Assembly: GCF_010119195.1 (NCBI RefSeq)
Contig: NZ_WRXL01000008.1
Location: 1 to 64,000 of the forward strand
Source: Haloarcula salina
GTDB taxonomy: Archaea > Halobacteriota > Halobacteria > Halobacteriales > Haloarculaceae
Reading direction: 5' to 3'
Length of the DNA stretch: 64,000 nt
Shown here: one piece after another, positions 46,755-54,201 of the stretch
How the letters are laid out: each line of letters opens with the position of its first letter
Position numbering within the stretch: the first letter of the stretch is position 1
The notes under the pieces: generated by a model
The model's database searches: none
Told to the model about the DNA's origin: nothing
What the model saw: only the letters and a program-made list of their open reading frames with translations
Translations under genes and position numbers: made by a program

Positions 46755-47114
46755 TCACAGGAGATAGAGGACGGCCCACGCGAGGCCGACGGCGGCCAGC
46801 GCCCCGACGAGATTGCCGACGGCGTTGAGCGCCGCCAGCGCGACGTAGCCGTCCTCCCACAGCCGCACCGTCTCGAACGAGAACGACGAGAACGTGGTGA
46901 ACGAGCCGCAGGCACCGACGCCGACGAGGAGCGCCGCGTCGCCGGTCGCGCCGGCGAACGTGAGCAGGCCGAGCGCGAAGCTCCCGAGGACGTTCACCGA
47001 GAGCGTCCCCAGCGGGAACGTCTCCCGCTGGACGGCCTGTGTCAGGTAGTAGCGACCGAGCGCGCCGAGCGCGCCGCCGGTCCCGACCAGGTGCCCGGGG
47101 TCGACGGCGACCAT
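46755..47114 (-). CDS. crcB: fluoride channel subunit CrcB/Fluc
   Basis: A 119-residue membrane protein with four helices. The pore signatures GALGRYYLT, NVLGSFALGLLTF and GSFTTFSSFSFE match the Fluc/CrcB family, where the TTFSSF Phe-box and the Asn of NVLGS line the fluoride path. It is the second gene of the pair; its start overlaps the stop of the other subunit gene (TGATG). A heterodimer of the two subunits is likely. Confidence 0.92.
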   Translation of the reverse strand: MVAVDPGHLVGTGGALGALGRYYLTQAVQRETFPLGTLSVNVLGSFALGLLTFAGATGDAALLVGVGACGSFTTFSSFSFETVRLWEDGYVALAALNAVGNLVGALAAVGLAWAVLYLL

Positions 47115-47497
47115 CAGCGCTCACCGCCCATGAGCCGGTGGACGACCGTCCGTCCGGCCAGGACGCCGGCGAACCCGAGCGCGTAGCTCCCGACGACGTT
47201 CGCCAGCGCCCACTCCGGCGAGGTGACGGTCTCGACAGCGAACGTGCTGTAGGTGGTGAACGACGAGATGAACCCCGTCGAGGCGGCCAGTTTCGTCTCG
47301 CTCGCCAGCACGCCGACCTGCAGCGCCTCGTAGAGGAGGACGCCGAGTGCGAAGCTCCCGAGCGCGTTGACGAGCAGCGTTCCCTGGAGGCCCGGCAGCA
47401 CGAGGCCGACGAAGTACCGGAGGTTCGACCCGGCGAATCCCCCGATGCCGACGAGGACGACGGTCTCGACCGTCACGAGCGGATGGGCGTCGCTCAT
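47114..47497 (-). CDS. crcB: fluoride channel subunit CrcB/Fluc
   Basis: A 127-residue paralogue of the preceding subunit, first in the pair. It shows GGFAGSNLRYFVG, NALGSFALGVLLYE and GFISSFTTYSTFAVE. Four helices are visible. Two short crcB genes in tandem usually encode an antiparallel heterodimeric channel that removes fluoride. No fluoride riboswitch could be seen upstream. Confidence 0.92.
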   Translation of the reverse strand: MSDAHPLVTVETVVLVGIGGFAGSNLRYFVGLVLPGLQGTLLVNALGSFALGVLLYEALQVGVLASETKLAASTGFISSFTTYSTFAVETVTSPEWALANVVGSYALGFAGVLAGRTVVHRLMGGER

Positions 47498-47500
47498 CGC

Positions 47501-47848
47501 TCAGTCACCGAGGATCTCGGCCAGCCGCGCCTCGCCGAGGGTGTCCACGAGCTGTGCGAGTTCGATGACCCGCTCCTCGCCGAGGGTGTCCACGAGTTCG
47601 CGGATCTCGTCCGGGTCGAAGGTCCGGGCCACGTAGCCGAGGTTCTCGACCATCTTCGTCGTCCGGTCGAGCACGTTCTCGTCCGGTCGAAGGGTCAGCG
47701 GCCGGTTCGTGAACTTCCCGTCGTCGTTGAAATAGCAGAACCGGAGCTCGGCGGTGTCGCTGTAGTCCGGTTTGACGACCTGCAGGACGCCGTATCCGTC
47801 GTCCCACTCGTCGAGTTCGACTTCGAGCAGCGTTTCGTATCGAGTCAT
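47501..47848 (-). CDS. acidic protein of unknown function with a short internal repeat
   Basis: A 115-residue protein from the ATG at 47848 (MTRYETLLEVELDE). It has a strand-rich first half and a helical, acidic second half in which LVDTLGEER and LVDTLGEAR occur as near repeats. It lies three bases from the crcB pair on the same strand, so it is probably the first gene of that transcript. The family is unknown to me. Confidence 0.68.
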   Translation of the reverse strand: MTRYETLLEVELDEWDDGYGVLQVVKPDYSDTAELRFCYFNDDGKFTNRPLTLRPDENVLDRTTKMVENLGYVARTFDPDEIRELVDTLGEERVIELAQLVDTLGEARLAEILGD

Positions 47849-48092
47849 AGATACGTATTCTAACGCACCCATCTTATGCGTTTTCATATTTTAGCGATAT
47901 ATGTTCGAAACAGGTTATGAGACGCAAGGAAAATACATTTCGCGCTCAGACAAAAATCCGCCGGCGAGCGACCCGTTGGCGGCCGGAGAATAATATTGGT
48001 ACAGATGTTATTCCGAACGCTATCCGACGTTCCTGAACGCGAGCCCCGCGTAGCCGCCCGCTCGCCGCCAGACGTTCGGGTGAATGGAACCA

Positions 48093-48100
48093 TTTTTATA
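48093..48100 (+). promoter_or_regulatory. TATA box of the SMC-like gene
   Basis: TTTTTATA lies 25-32 bases before the ATG at 48125. The box fits that ATG rather than the two upstream in-frame ones, at 48113 and 47996. Confidence 0.5.
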
Positions 48101-48124: not shown

Positions 48125-50086
48125 ATGCCAGAATCACAGCAGGAATCTAGCATCGCCCACTTCGATGTGGAACACATCGGTGGAATCGACGAGACGTCGG
48201 TCGATATCCCTCCGGGAGTGACGGTTCTGACCGGGAAGAACGCGACGAACCGGACCTCGTTCTTGCAGTCGATCATGGCCGCGATGGGGAGCAAGCAGGC
48301 GACGCTCAAAGGCGACGCGGAGGAAGGCCACGTGGCCTTCTCTTACCAGGGCGAACAGTACGAACGTACGCTGACGCGAGCCGGCAACGCCGTCCAGTTC
48401 AGCGGTGAGGGCTACCTCGACGACCCGGAGGTCGCCGACCTGTTCGCGTTCCTGCTGGAGACCAACGAGGCGCGCCGGTCCGTCGCCCGCGGCGACGACC
48501 TCCGCGAAATCATCATGCGGCCGGTCGACATCGACGCAATCCGAACGGAAGTCGAGCGCCTGGAGCGCGAGAAGGGCGAGATCAACGACGAACTCGCCAC
48601 GATCGAATCCCGCCAGCGCGACCTCCCCGACCTCGAACAGCGCCGTACCGACATCCGCGAGCAGATCGAGGACAAGCGCGCGGAGCTCGCGGAACGCGAG
48701 GAGGAGATCGACGACAGCAGCCGCGACATCGAGGAGAGCCGTCAGGAGCAGGACGTTCTCGAAGAGAAACTCGACGAGCTCCGGTCGACGCGGTCGGACC
48801 TCGAATCCGTCCGCCGAGACATCGAGACCCAGGAAGAGAGCATCTCGTCGCTGAAACGCGAGCTCGCGGATCTCGAAGACGAACTGGACGAGCTGCCCGA
48901 CACGCCGATGGGCGACCAGCAGCACCTCGACGAGGAGATCGCCCGCCTCCGGGAGCAGCGACAGACGCTGAACGGCGAGATCTCCGACCTCCAGAGCCTC
49001 ATCCAGTACAACGAGGAGCGACTGGAAGAGGAAGACTACGACGTGATCCAGTCCCTCGAAGACGCGTCGGAGGAGGCGGACGGCGCGGTGACGGAGCAGT
49101 TGCTCGGCGGCGACGACGAGGAGTCCGTCGTCTGCTGGACGTGTGGCTCGACCGTCGACCGCGAGCAGATCGAGGACACCGTCGACCGACTGCAGGACCT
49201 CCGCCGGGAGAAGGTCGAGGACTTGAACGAGATCAAGTCCGACCTCGACGACCTGAAGGCCGACCAGCGCGAGGCCGAGAAGAAACAGCGACGCCGCGAG
49301 AACGTCGAGCGCAAGATCCAGGAGACCGAGACGGAGATCGAGCGCCGCGACGAACAGGTCTCGTCGCTGAAAGACCGCCGCGAGGAGCTGACCGACGAGG
49401 TCGAAGCCCTCGAGAACGAGGTCGACAACCTCGAATCCGAGGACTTCGACGAGATCCTCTCGCTCCACCGGGAGGCCAACCAGCTCGAGTTCGAGATCGA
49501 CAGTCTGGAGTCCGACCTCGACGACGTGACGGAGGAAATCGAGGAGATCGAGGCGATGGTCGACCGCGCCGACGACCTCCGCGAGGAGCGCGACGAACTG
49601 GTCGACCAGCTCACCGACAAGCGGACGAAGATCGACCAGATCGAGGCCAACGCCGTCGAGCAGTTCAACGAGCACATGGACGCCATCCTCGGCATCCTCG
49701 AGTACCAGAACCTCGAACGCATCTGGATCGAGCGCGTCGAGCAGACCGTCCGCGAGGGCCGCCAGAAGGTCGACCGAACGGTGTTCGAACTCCACATCGT
49801 CCGGACCACTGAGAACGGCGCGGCCTACGAGGACACCATCGAGCACCTGAGCGAGAGCGAGCGCGAGGTGACGGGACTCATCTTCGCGCTGGCGGGCTAC
49901 CTGGTCCACGACCTCCACGAGTCGGTTCCGTTCATGCTGCTGGACTCGCTGGAGGCCATCGACTCGGCGCGTATCGCCGAACTCGTCGACTACTTCGCCG
50001 ACTACGCCGAGCACCTCGTCGTCGCTCTGCTGCCCGAGGACGCGCAGGCGCTCGACGACGACTACAGCCGCATCACCTCGATCTAA
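48125..50086 (+). CDS. archaea-specific SMC-like ATPase (Sph3-type)
   Basis: A 653-residue protein with ATPase ends and a long coiled coil. The N-terminal head has the loop LTGKNATNRTSF, where an Arg stands at the usual Walker A lysine position. The C-terminal head has LSESEREV (signature) and FMLLDSLEAID (Walker B, with Ser at the usual Glu position). Between lie two coiled-coil arms (about 140-310 and 350-510) separated by a hook CWTCG with Cys337 and Cys340, as in Rad50. In Haloferax this SMC-like protein neighbours RdfA, a rod-shape factor, as it does here. Confidence 0.85.
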   Translation: MPESQQESSIAHFDVEHIGGIDETSVDIPPGVTVLTGKNATNRTSFLQSIMAAMGSKQATLKGDAEEGHVAFSYQGEQYERTLTRAGNAVQFSGEGYLDDPEVADLFAFLLETNEARRSVARGDDLREIIMRPVDIDAIRTEVERLEREKGEINDELATIESRQRDLPDLEQRRTDIREQIEDKRAELAEREEEIDDSSRDIEESRQEQDVLEEKLDELRSTRSDLESVRRDIETQEESISSLKRELADLEDELDELPDTPMGDQQHLDEEIARLREQRQTLNGEISDLQSLIQYNEERLEEEDYDVIQSLEDASEEADGAVTEQLLGGDDEESVVCWTCGSTVDREQIEDTVDRLQDLRREKVEDLNEIKSDLDDLKADQREAEKKQRRRENVERKIQETETEIERRDEQVSSLKDRREELTDEVEALENEVDNLESEDFDEILSLHREANQLEFEIDSLESDLDDVTEEIEEIEAMVDRADDLREERDELVDQLTDKRTKIDQIEANAVEQFNEHMDAILGILEYQNLERIWIERVEQTVREGRQKVDRTVFELHIVRTTENGAAYEDTIEHLSESEREVTGLIFALAGYLVHDLHESVPFMLLDSLEAIDSARIAELVDYFADYAEHLVVALLPEDAQALDDDYSRITSI

Positions 50087-50095
50087 CCCCAACAC

Positions 50096-50104
50096 CTTTT
50101 ACTT
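50096..50104 (+). promoter_or_regulatory. possible rdfA TATA-like box
   Basis: CTTTTACTT lies 27-35 bases before the ATG of the RdfA-like gene, in the 44-base gap behind the SMC-like gene. It could start a separate transcript, but cotranscription is equally likely. Confidence 0.35.
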
Positions 50105-50130
50105 CCGGTTCACGTACGTGGTGACGAGAG

Positions 50131-50748
50131 ATGGCAGACACGACAGACGGGCGACCGTCGAGCAAGGTCGCCCGGCTCATCGACGAGTACGACCTCGACG
50201 GTCTGGGCGCGGAGATGGAAGCGCGCTGGACCGGCGACGGCGAGGAGCGGATGAGCCTTCGAGACCTCGCGGAGTTCTTCAACAAGCGACTGCTGGAGCG
50301 ATCCCTGGTCGACGCCGGCATGAGCGCCCTCGAGAGCGACGTCGAATCGACCTACGAGAACCTCACCAGTGACGACATCAGCACCGGTGTTCGGACGGAC
50401 ACGCGCAACCGACTCGAACGGAACGGCATCGACGTGGACGATCTGGAGACGGACTTCGTCACCTACCAGGCGATCCGCTCGTACCTCAAGGAGTGGCGCG
50501 GCGCGGAGTACCAGGGGCTCTCGGACGACGAGAAGATCGAGAAGGACCTAGAGAGCATCCAGCGGCTCCTGACGCGGACGCTGTCGGTCACCGACCAGCG
50601 TATCGAGAAACTGCGCGACACCGGCCGCATCGACATCGACGAGTTCGAGGTGTTCCTCGACGCGCAGGTGCTCTGTCAGTCCTGCGGCAGCCAGTACGCC
50701 GTCGCCGACTTCTTCGAGCAGGGCGGCTGTGAGTGCCAGCAGGACTGA
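50131..50748 (+). CDS. rdfA: rod-determining factor RdfA-like protein
   Basis: A 205-residue protein. Its N-terminal half reads SSKVARLIDEYDLDGLGAEMEARWTG and SLRDLAEFFNKRLLERSL, the middle is helical, and the end has a zinc knuckle CQSCGSQYAVADFFEQGGCEC. This matches my memory of RdfA, a haloarchaeal factor needed for rod shape in Haloferax. It lies 44 bases behind the SMC-like gene. It probably acts in the cytoplasm, perhaps with the ATPase on chromosome or cell-shape control. Confidence 0.8.
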   Translation: MADTTDGRPSSKVARLIDEYDLDGLGAEMEARWTGDGEERMSLRDLAEFFNKRLLERSLVDAGMSALESDVESTYENLTSDDISTGVRTDTRNRLERNGIDVDDLETDFVTYQAIRSYLKEWRGAEYQGLSDDEKIEKDLESIQRLLTRTLSVTDQRIEKLRDTGRIDIDEFEVFLDAQVLCQSCGSQYAVADFFEQGGCECQQD

Positions 50749-52081: not shown

Positions 52082-52139
52082 CGCCGGCACGGTCGCCGCG
52101 GACCGCACTTTCTTGCTCCGCCGGGTCGTTCGCGCTCGC

Positions 52140-53435
52140 ATGGACGAACGCGCCGTCGTCACCTGCTTCCTGCGCAGCGAGGGCGAGGTGTTGCTGTTGC
52201 GCCGGAGCGACGCCGTGGGGTCGTACGCGGGCCGGTGGGGCGGCGTCGCGGGCCACGTCGCCGACGACGACGGTCGCGACCGGGAGCCGGAGGCGGCCGC
52301 ACAGGCGGAGATTCAGGAGGAGACCGGGCTCGGCGACGCGGTCGCGCTGCTCCGTCGGGGAGCACCGTTTCCCGTCGAGGACGCCGACCGCGGGACCCGG
52401 TGGGTCGTCCACCCGTTCCTGTTCGACTGTGCCTCCCGCGACGTGCGGGCCAACGAGGAGACGACGGAGACGGCGTGGGTCCACCCGCCCGAGATACTGC
52501 GCCGCGAGACGGTGCCGCGGCTGTGGACCTCCTACGACCGGGTTCGGCCCCGTGTCGCGACGGTCCGCGAGGATCGCACGCACGGCTCCGCGTGGATCTC
52601 GTTGCGAGCGCTCGAAGTCCTCCGGGACGAGGCCGCTCTCGCGGCGACCGGGCGAGCAGACGAACTGGAGACGGCAGAGCGCGCCGGCGACGACTGGGGC
52701 GCGCTCGCGACCCTCGCCCGCGCGCTCCGCGAGGCCCGCCCCTCGATGGTCGTGGTCGCCAACCGCGTCGACCGCGCGATGCACGCCGTCGCCGACCGCA
52801 CGCCGTCTGCGGTCGAGCGGGCGGCGACCGAGGCGCTGACGGACGCCGTGAGCGCGGACGGGGTCGCCGCGGCCGTGGCCGCCGACCACGTCGGCGACCG
52901 CGTCGCCACCCTCTCGCGGTCGGGAACGGTCCGGACGGTCCTCGCCGCCGCCGGACCCTCCGCCGTCCTCGTCGCCGAGTCGCGACCGGGACGGGAGGGC
53001 GTCGGCGTCGCCGAAGCGCTCGCCGACGACGCCGCGGTGACGCTGACTACCGACGCGGCCTTCGGGCACGAACTGGCCGCGTGGGACGCCGAGACGCTCG
53101 TCGTCGGCGCGGACCGCGTCCTCCCGGACGGTCGGGTCGTCAACAAGGTCGGGACCCGCGCGGCGGCGCTGTCGGCGGCCGCTGCGGGCGCGGACTGCTA
53201 CGCGGTCTGTGCCACGGACAAGGTCGCGCCGTCCGCCGACTGGGAGCGCGAGGACCGCGACCCCACGGAGGTGTACGACGGCGACGCCGCCGTCGACGTG
53301 GCGAACCCGACGTTCGACGTGACGCCGGCGGACGCGGTGACCGTCGTCACGGAGCGGGGCGTCCTCGACGCCGAGGATATCGGGGCGGTCGCCGACGCCC
53401 ACCGAGAGCGAGGCGAGTGGCTCGAAGACGGGTGA
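52140..53435 (+). CDS. fusion of a NUDIX domain and an eIF2B-like domain
   Basis: A 431-residue fusion. Residues 1-150 form a NUDIX fold (VVTCFLRSEGEVLLLRRSDAV, then AEIQEETGL as the box). The box keeps the glutamates but has Ala in place of the conserved Arg before them. Residues 190-420 form an eIF2B/ribose-1,5-bisphosphate-isomerase-type domain with LVVGADRVLPDGRVVNKVGTRAAAL. The NUDIX half could hydrolyse a nucleotide or sugar phosphate that feeds the isomerase-type half. Such fusions are seen in haloarchaea; the function is not established. Confidence 0.82.
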   Translation: MDERAVVTCFLRSEGEVLLLRRSDAVGSYAGRWGGVAGHVADDDGRDREPEAAAQAEIQEETGLGDAVALLRRGAPFPVEDADRGTRWVVHPFLFDCASRDVRANEETTETAWVHPPEILRRETVPRLWTSYDRVRPRVATVREDRTHGSAWISLRALEVLRDEAALAATGRADELETAERAGDDWGALATLARALREARPSMVVVANRVDRAMHAVADRTPSAVERAATEALTDAVSADGVAAAVAADHVGDRVATLSRSGTVRTVLAAAGPSAVLVAESRPGREGVGVAEALADDAAVTLTTDAAFGHELAAWDAETLVVGADRVLPDGRVVNKVGTRAAALSAAAAGADCYAVCATDKVAPSADWEREDRDPTEVYDGDAAVDVANPTFDVTPADAVTVVTERGVLDAEDIGAVADAHRERGEWLEDG

Positions 53436-53454: not shown

Positions 53455-54201
53455 TCACTGCTCGTCCAGCACGACCGGCACGCCGGCCTCGGCCACGTCC
53501 GCGGCGAACTCCCGGGAGTCGGCTTCGAGGTTCGAGAAGGTGTTGTAGTGGACCGGCAGGACGAGGTCCGGTTCGACGGTCGCGGCCAGCGCGGCGGCCT
53601 CGTGGCGGTCCATCGTCGCCCGCGGGCCGATTGGCGGACACAGCAGCGACACGTCGAGCGTCCGATGGCCGGGGAGCACGTCCGAGTCGCCGGGATAGAA
53701 CACCCTGGTTCCGTCGAGCGCGATCATGAAGCCGCAGCCGAACCCCTCGGGGTGGTACGGCGTCCCGTCCGGGAGCGTGTGCGGACCGTCCGGTTCGTTG
53801 TACGCCGGCGTCGACCAGATGGGCACGTCGTCGACGGTGACCTGCGACTTCATTCCCACCTCGACGACCTCGTACCCGAGCGAGGAGATGGGCGGGAGGT
53901 CGCGGTCGCCGACGCGCTCGTCGATGCCTTCGTAGGCGACGATGGTCGCGTCGTCGCTCGCCACGCGCTCGATGCCGTCCGGGTCGTAGTGATGGACGTG
54001 GGTGACACAGACCACGTCCCCGTCTCCCGCCCGGTAGTCGCTGCTGGGCGGGTGGCCGATGCCGTCGACGTGGGGCTCCCACTCGCCGGTGAGGACGCCG
54101 TACCGGCCCGGGTCGACGTACACCACGTCGCGCTCCCCGGCGAAGCGGAGCGTGGCGTAGCCGAGCCAGTCGACGGTGAGCCCGTCGTGTCGAATCGTCA
54201 T
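53455..54201 (-). CDS. MBL-fold metallohydrolase-like protein
   Basis: A 248-residue metallo-beta-lactamase-fold protein resembling the UlaG-like group. The metal motif reads VTHVHHYDPDGIERV, departing from the canonical HxHxDH by one residue. The second-half ligands FYPGDSD and VLPVHYNTFSN are present. It is convergent with the NUDIX fusion gene (about 20 bases). The substrate is not known. Confidence 0.82.
   Translation of the reverse strand: MTIRHDGLTVDWLGYATLRFAGERDVVYVDPGRYGVLTGEWEPHVDGIGHPPSSDYRAGDGDVVCVTHVHHYDPDGIERVASDDATIVAYEGIDERVGDRDLPPISSLGYEVVEVGMKSQVTVDDVPIWSTPAYNEPDGPHTLPDGTPYHPEGFGCGFMIALDGTRVFYPGDSDVLPGHRTLDVSLLCPPIGPRATMDRHEAAALAATVEPDLVLPVHYNTFSNLEADSREFAADVAEAGVPVVLDEQ

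Follow-up and report, generated by a model that had tools for sequence, protein, structure and literature searches.

We found that the haloarchaeal archaea-specific SMC-related proteins (ASRPs) share an altered ATP site, and the variation at this site indicates selection for a specific altered form rather than decay. One of these proteins is encoded beside an RdfA gene in the window, the stretch of 64,000 nucleotides of Haloarcula salina analysed here (contig NZ_WRXL01000008.1, positions 1 to 64,000). In addition, ASRP and RdfA co-diverge as fixed pairs. The pairing of the two genes and the role of sph3 and rdfA in rod formation of Haloferax volcanii are already known (PMC10869688), and the genes described here are a further copy of that published haloarchaeal pair. 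The family-wide altered ATP site, the occurrence of RdfA before the haloarchaea and the co-divergence of the pair go beyond the published pairing.

The two genes lie in the same direction, with ASRP first and a gap of 44 bp between them. The first product matched NCBIfam NF045487 (archaea-specific SMC-related protein) over profile positions 1-593 of 593 with 682.9 bits (curated cut-off, 300 bits), and the second matched Pfam PF21811 with 261.5 bits (gathering cut-off, 27 bits). The preliminary description of this DNA had placed an SMC-like ATPase and an RdfA-like partner at 48125-50748; both identities agree with these matches, and both ORFs agree to the base. The features of the pair are as follows.

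48125-50086, + strand: gene of the ASRP/Sph-family SMC-like protein, 653 amino acids (ATG at 48125, stop ending at 50086)
48233-48259, + strand: Walker A motif G37-S45 (GKNATNRTS), with Arg43 in place of Lys (codon 48251-48253)
49133-49144, + strand: zinc hook C337-W-T-C340 (CWTC); C337, W338, C340 and G341 invariant (n = 176)
49847-49861, + strand: ABC signature L575-S-E-S-E579; L575 and E579 invariant, S576 in 173/176
49943-49948, + strand: Walker B Asp607-Ser608 (LLDSLEAID), with Ser in place of the catalytic Glu
50131-50748, + strand: RdfA gene, 205 amino acids (ATG at 50131, stop ending at 50748)
50674-50736, + strand: RdfA tail C182-x2-C185...C200-x-C202, probably metal binding; each Cys 89-94% conserved in 107 diverse RdfA sequences

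The ASRP has ABC head halves at both termini, an antiparallel coiled coil in segments and a zinc hook. Its AF2 model (pLDDT 89) contains the coiled coil and an ABC/SMC head formed by the N- and C-terminal halves, and its best PDB relatives were Rad50, SMC and cohesin heads (Z 19-23). Of the input rows for structure prediction in this work, one from a plasmid record was left out. The Rad50-like CxxC hook that had been noted earlier is the CWTC at 337-340, and CxxC occurs in all 176 unique haloarchaeal ASRPs. No mre11 gene adjoins the ASRP gene, whose neighbours are a crcB pair and genes for a hypothetical protein, a class V aminotransferase and a NUDIX/IF-2B protein. During collection of the family, weak NF045487 matches in two genomes were dropped, since they were Rad50-like genes beside an Mre11-like gene and below the cut-off.

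ATP-driven cycles define SMC proteins, and hydrolysis-dead mutants in which Glu is changed to Gln are standard laboratory tools. The canonical catalytic pair of the SMC superfamily, Walker A Lys and Walker B Glu, is replaced in the window ASRP by Arg43 and Ser608, as had been read from its sequence before. These two residues are family traits of haloarchaeal ASRPs and, like the hook, are not chance features. The combination was found in 165 of the 176 unique sequences; position 43 was otherwise Lys (11), and position 608 was otherwise Ala (6), Arg (4) or Gly (1) and never Glu. When eight further divergent haloarchaeal sequences were added (184 in total), 168 had Arg with Ser, 16 had Lys with Ala, Arg or Gly, and there was no mixed case and no catalytic Glu. 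Asp607 is invariant (176/176), and there is almost no variation at Ser45 or at the Ser of the signature. Thus, the metal- and nucleotide-contacting parts of the site remain.

Outside the haloarchaea, Lys was present at position 43 in all ten ASRPs examined, and position 608 was Glu in seven, Asn in two and Asp in one. All three of those with an RdfA neighbour had Glu together with Lys, and both residues are retained in the closest outgroup of the haloarchaeal ASRPs. In the tree, residues 43 and 608 change on the same three branches: one is the switch to Arg/Ser, and the other two lead from it to Lys/Ala. Furthermore, of all 652 columns, column 608 shared the most normalised mutual information with column 43, and each of the six Arg codons and six Ser codons is used at the altered positions in haloarchaeal ASRPs. 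The joint switching, the lack of mixed cases and the full use of synonymous codons thus argue that the altered site was selected and is not decaying. The rebuilt site of this family probably blocks normal ATP breakdown. Low turnover is what we infer from these residues, and Arg for Lys with Ser for Glu does not by itself prove the loss of hydrolysis.

RdfA, the second protein, gave an AF2 model with a pLDDT of 94.5, comprising a helical domain (12-122), a long helix (132-163) and a C-terminal zinc-ribbon-like tail. No clear solved relative of this fold was found in the PDB (best Foldseek E 0.85, best Z 4.8), and no sequence match was found there either. A likeness to kleisins was detectable neither by sequence nor by fold, a missing match not being an exclusion; kleisins were absent among the VIA matches listed for RdfA, and the one MukEF chain seen was a Foldseek match below significance. 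Candidate natural fusions of RdfA with ASRP were rejected, because the long frames around several RdfA genes were spurious upstream reading frames.

An RdfA gene was found within flanks of about 1.5 kb of 152 of the 176 unique ASRPs. RdfA came first in 92 of these pairs and ASRP in 27, while 19 pairs were convergent and 14 divergent; since all four orientations are seen, the adjacency is independent of one operon layout. Some of the 24 ASRPs with no nearby RdfA lie at contig ends (two loci), and another has an RdfA with an in-frame stop. In 15 Haloferax genomes, 40 ASRPs and 40 RdfAs were always neighbours. Among 145 haloarchaeal genomes, RdfA was found in 125 and ASRP in 123. The sample used for the pairing analysis consists of the matches listed and is weighted to high-scoring family members. 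As side observations, ASRP lies between two RdfA genes at two loci, the second RdfA being about 30% identical to that of the window, and RdfA stands alone, with ASRP absent within about 2-3 kb, at twelve others.

The distances of the two proteins were strongly correlated (r = 0.845 over 161 pairs; random, 0.00 ± 0.06). In genomes with several pairs, r was 0.83 for the true partners and 0.18 ± 0.13 when partners were swapped within genomes, and 69 of 77 nearest-neighbour tests kept the partner (33 expected). Linked inheritance alone could give such co-divergence, so that a fixed pairing is demonstrated and not contact. Over the 161 pairs (84 effective), covariation between the two proteins gave no contact signal above the partner-swap nulls. 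Genetics supports the view that both families act together, because H. volcanii loses its rods when either rdfA or sph3 is deleted (PMC10869688).

By sequence comparison, RdfA predates the haloarchaea, and divergent copies adjoin ASRP in three methanogen-type genomes. When eleven non-haloarchaeal genomes with ASRP-like hits were searched with PF21811, three gave matches (35, 25 and 22 bits), only one of them over the cut-off. All three genes lie directly downstream of ASRP, and a profile of 107 haloarchaeal RdfA sequences recovered the same genes from the fetched loci (1e-11, 7e-10 and 7e-6). The N-terminal CxxC is present in all three and the C-terminal one in two. A winged-helix gene follows each of them (HTH_45, 3.7e-6 for one), and no such third gene was found in haloarchaeal loci. 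Two of the cassettes are on contigs of plasmid-like size, which suggests that they are plasmid-borne. The ASRP family, with its zinc hook, was defined in an earlier study, which also located three proteins from Methanosarcinales beside the Sph clade (PMC9389158). Term searches of PMC10869688, PMC11276520 and PMC9389158 gave no mention of RdfA outside the haloarchaea or of altered Walker residues in ASRPs; the literature covered was mostly non-subscription, and novelty is unproven on both points.

More distant ASRPs have other neighbours instead: five non-haloarchaeal ones share a recurring gene cluster that includes an AAA+ ATPase (TRIP13/IetA-like by PADLOC). Clusters of this type also contain small proteins of 130-145 amino acids and, in some, a zinc-ribbon-like protein, and a PAPS-reductase-like gene is near three of them. 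They possibly represent an undescribed multi-gene system.

Upstream of the window ASRP, two further features were found.

47987-48014, + strand: inverted repeat (A/G)GAATAATATTGGTACAG(A/G)TGTTATTCC, also GGAATAATATTGGTACAG(G/A)TGTTATTCC, between the divergent gene 47504-47887 and ASRP
48093-48100, + strand: TATA-box-like TTTTTATA, which precedes the ASRP start codon by about 25 bp and is conserved at five Haloarcula loci

The 26-mer core of the repeat is identical in 14 Haloarcula-type loci whose flanks have diverged, and the repeat is the only site within 3 mismatches in its own genome. It is probably an operator for ASRP-RdfA or for the divergent gene. If TTTTTATA acts as a TATA box, its distance from the start codon implies a leaderless transcript or one with a very short leader. 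Together, the two elements suggest a dedicated, regulated promoter for the pair. The divergent gene (47504-47887, - strand) encodes a hypothetical 128-amino-acid protein; it is syntenic in the Haloarcula loci examined, and its product has no Pfam or NCBIfam match. Next to it are tandem CrcB/Fluc fluoride-channel genes of different subtypes (46758-47114 and 47117-47497, - strand), which suggests a heterodimeric channel. On the other side, one gene (52113-53432, + strand), conserved in Haloarcula, encodes a NUDIX domain fused to an IF-2B/ribose-1,5-bisphosphate-isomerase-like domain.

The source genome contains three ASRP-RdfA pairs. Besides the window pair (C13), there are a convergent pair (C11, 101648-104143), whose layout means that the association does not depend on co-transcription, and a divergent Lys/Gly-type pair (C10), which groups with the most divergent Haloferax copies and is probably Sph1. 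A tree built from concatenated pairs placed the window pair in a 26-member clade (SH-aLRT 98) that contains no Haloferax. The nearest Haloferax group is a plasmid one, with weak support (57), and the chromosomal group taken as Sph3 is further out. The tree left out H. volcanii Sph1-4, and the Sph3 group was recognised as the chromosomal, near-universal copy; the naming of paralogues thus follows replicon and phylogeny. With the Sph3 group so assigned, the window pair is not the orthologue of Sph3/RdfA. Its nearest relatives in Haloarcula have 89-90% identity in a conserved neighbourhood: ASRP is 89-90% and RdfA 93-94% identical, most neighbours are 72-85%, and a metal-dependent-hydrolase-like gene (53455-54201) is above most neighbours at about 91%. 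In five more distant relatives, the pair stays together and none of the window neighbours was found.

The published genetics concern the H. volcanii paralogues. Both rdfA (HVO_2174) and sph3 (HVO_2175) are needed for rods and motility, and an RdfA gene adjoins the SMC-like gene in 78-84% of cases in 24 genomes (PMC10869688, 2024). The RdfA-type influence on Haloferax rod shape that the preliminary description mentioned agrees with this. The proposed link between the hook ATPase and shape is also real; it is not undescribed, being already a finding of that 2024 paper, and only its mechanism is open. Another study repeated the loss of rods in the sph3 deletion, and found that sph2 deletion has the opposite effect and locks cells as rods. 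It also reported that a joint deletion of sph2 and sph4 is not possible, and that survival in a gene-conversion assay is lower when any one of the four sph genes is deleted (PMC11276520).

Given these results, we consider that the chromosomal Haloarcula-type ASRP(Sph)-RdfA system may be a low-turnover clamp or scaffold with RdfA as its dedicated adapter, in paralogous pairs with separate jobs, and we rate this account as evenly balanced between right and wrong. The ASRP would form dimers linked by the hook, with the heads closing on bound nucleotide, since Asp607, Ser45 and the signature are kept. Because Lys43 and Glu608 are replaced by the co-selected Arg/Ser pair, ATP would be hydrolysed slowly or not at all, and the protein would therefore be a long-lived clamp, bridge or scaffold and not a fast motor. 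RdfA, which is small and helical and has a zinc-ribbon-like tail, would form a complex with it and load it, regulate it or couple it to its target, which may be DNA or a shape or cytoskeletal factor. The paralogous pairs would have diverged to rod formation, disc formation and gene conversion, and the job of the window pair is probably within this set. The literature found reports no biochemistry of haloarchaeal ASRP or RdfA, which counts against the clamp. The stand-alone RdfA genes, the ASRPs that lack a nearby RdfA and the negative covariation scan also speak against this account.

The wider proposal is more tentative. Haloarchaeal ASRPs may be naturally rebuilt SMC ATPases, in which the ancestral Lys/Glu gave way to a coupled Arg43/Ser608 and later twice jointly to Lys with Ala. 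They would act as nucleotide-gated clamps with no normal turnover, serving shape and genome-copy functions, with RdfA as an ancient non-kleisin partner that was already present in the methanogen-type relatives keeping Lys/Glu. We regard this as a possibility somewhat short of probable.

Two other explanations draw on the same genetics. The window pair may promote rods as Sph3-RdfA does, with ASRP as an intermediate-filament-like coiled-coil scaffold and not a DNA protein. The authors of PMC10869688 suggested a coiled-coil cytoskeletal role, the Sph3 and RdfA deletions gave only discs together with motility loss, and over-expression of Halobacterium salinarum Sph1 in Hfx. volcanii gave rods (PMC10869688). 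However, in the tree the window pair belongs to no Haloferax clade, the phenotypes of the Haloferax paralogues are opposite or unrelated (PMC11276520), and two other pairs are present in the genome. Since the pair is not orthologous and the paralogues differ in their jobs, the name "cell-shape module" that was first given to it cannot be transferred by homology alone. A shape role of this copy is plausible, and we consider the scaffold explanation as a whole unlikely. Likewise, the annotation "rod-determining factor" on many RdfA paralogues should not be taken as a shape function.

Alternatively, the pair may be a recombination or gene-conversion factor that bridges genome copies in a polyploid cell, with secondary effects on shape. 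This would fit the lowered gene-conversion survival and the failure to delete sph2 and sph4 together (PMC11276520), the chromosome binding of the ASRP relative ClsN in Sulfolobus (PMC9764264) and a head fold nearest to Rad50. However, no DNA binding by any Sph-RdfA pair is reported in the literature found, and ASRP lacks the catalytic Glu of Rad50-type motors; we consider this explanation rather improbable. A mobile-element or Lamassu-like defence system, in which an SMC-like sensor and its partner are widespread on plasmids, is highly improbable. In its favour, relatives occur on 128 plasmid records, two non-haloarchaeal cassettes are on plasmid-sized contigs, a non-haloarchaeal ASRP had LmuB as its nearest PADLOC model (1.4e-25), and the fold matches include LmuB structures of Lamassu. 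However, synteny of the window locus extends across Haloarcula, neither gene of the pair encodes a nuclease or toxin effector, no PADLOC model matched RdfA, and the paralogues show cellular phenotypes.

If the low-turnover clamp reading is true, a whole clade in which both catalytic residues have undergone a selected, co-varying replacement would offer a natural test of turnover-free SMC-like clamps. In addition, RdfA beside ASRP outside the haloarchaea bears on whether ASRP/ClsN proteins have a dedicated partner, a question posed for ClsN in PMC9764264, and these pairs are concrete candidates for complex formation.

Among the known systems, Sph3 (HVO_2175) and RdfA (HVO_2174) of Haloferax volcanii belong to the same two families and are adjacent, as in the window. 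However, in the chromosomal Haloferax group presumed to be Sph3, RdfA precedes the SMC-like gene, whereas it follows in the window. ClsN (coalescin) of Sulfolobus and Sph1 and Sph2 of Halobacterium are also small SMC-like proteins with a zinc hook and a bipartite ABC head (PMC9389158), and for ClsN no RdfA partner is reported in the literature found. In haloarchaeal ASRPs the catalytic Glu is gone, and so in most cases is the Lys of Walker A, whereas most of the non-haloarchaeal ASRPs examined keep both. Rad50/SbcC shares the head fold (Z 23) and the CxxC hook with ASRP, but ASRP has no Mre11 gene beside it, a much shorter coiled coil and replacements of the catalytic Lys and Glu. Unlike SMC-ScpAB and MukBEF, the pair has a zinc hook and not a hinge domain, and RdfA has no detectable kleisin similarity. 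Nevertheless, it resembles them in that an SMC-like ATPase is encoded with a small partner, to which the methanogen-type loci add a winged-helix gene as the third.
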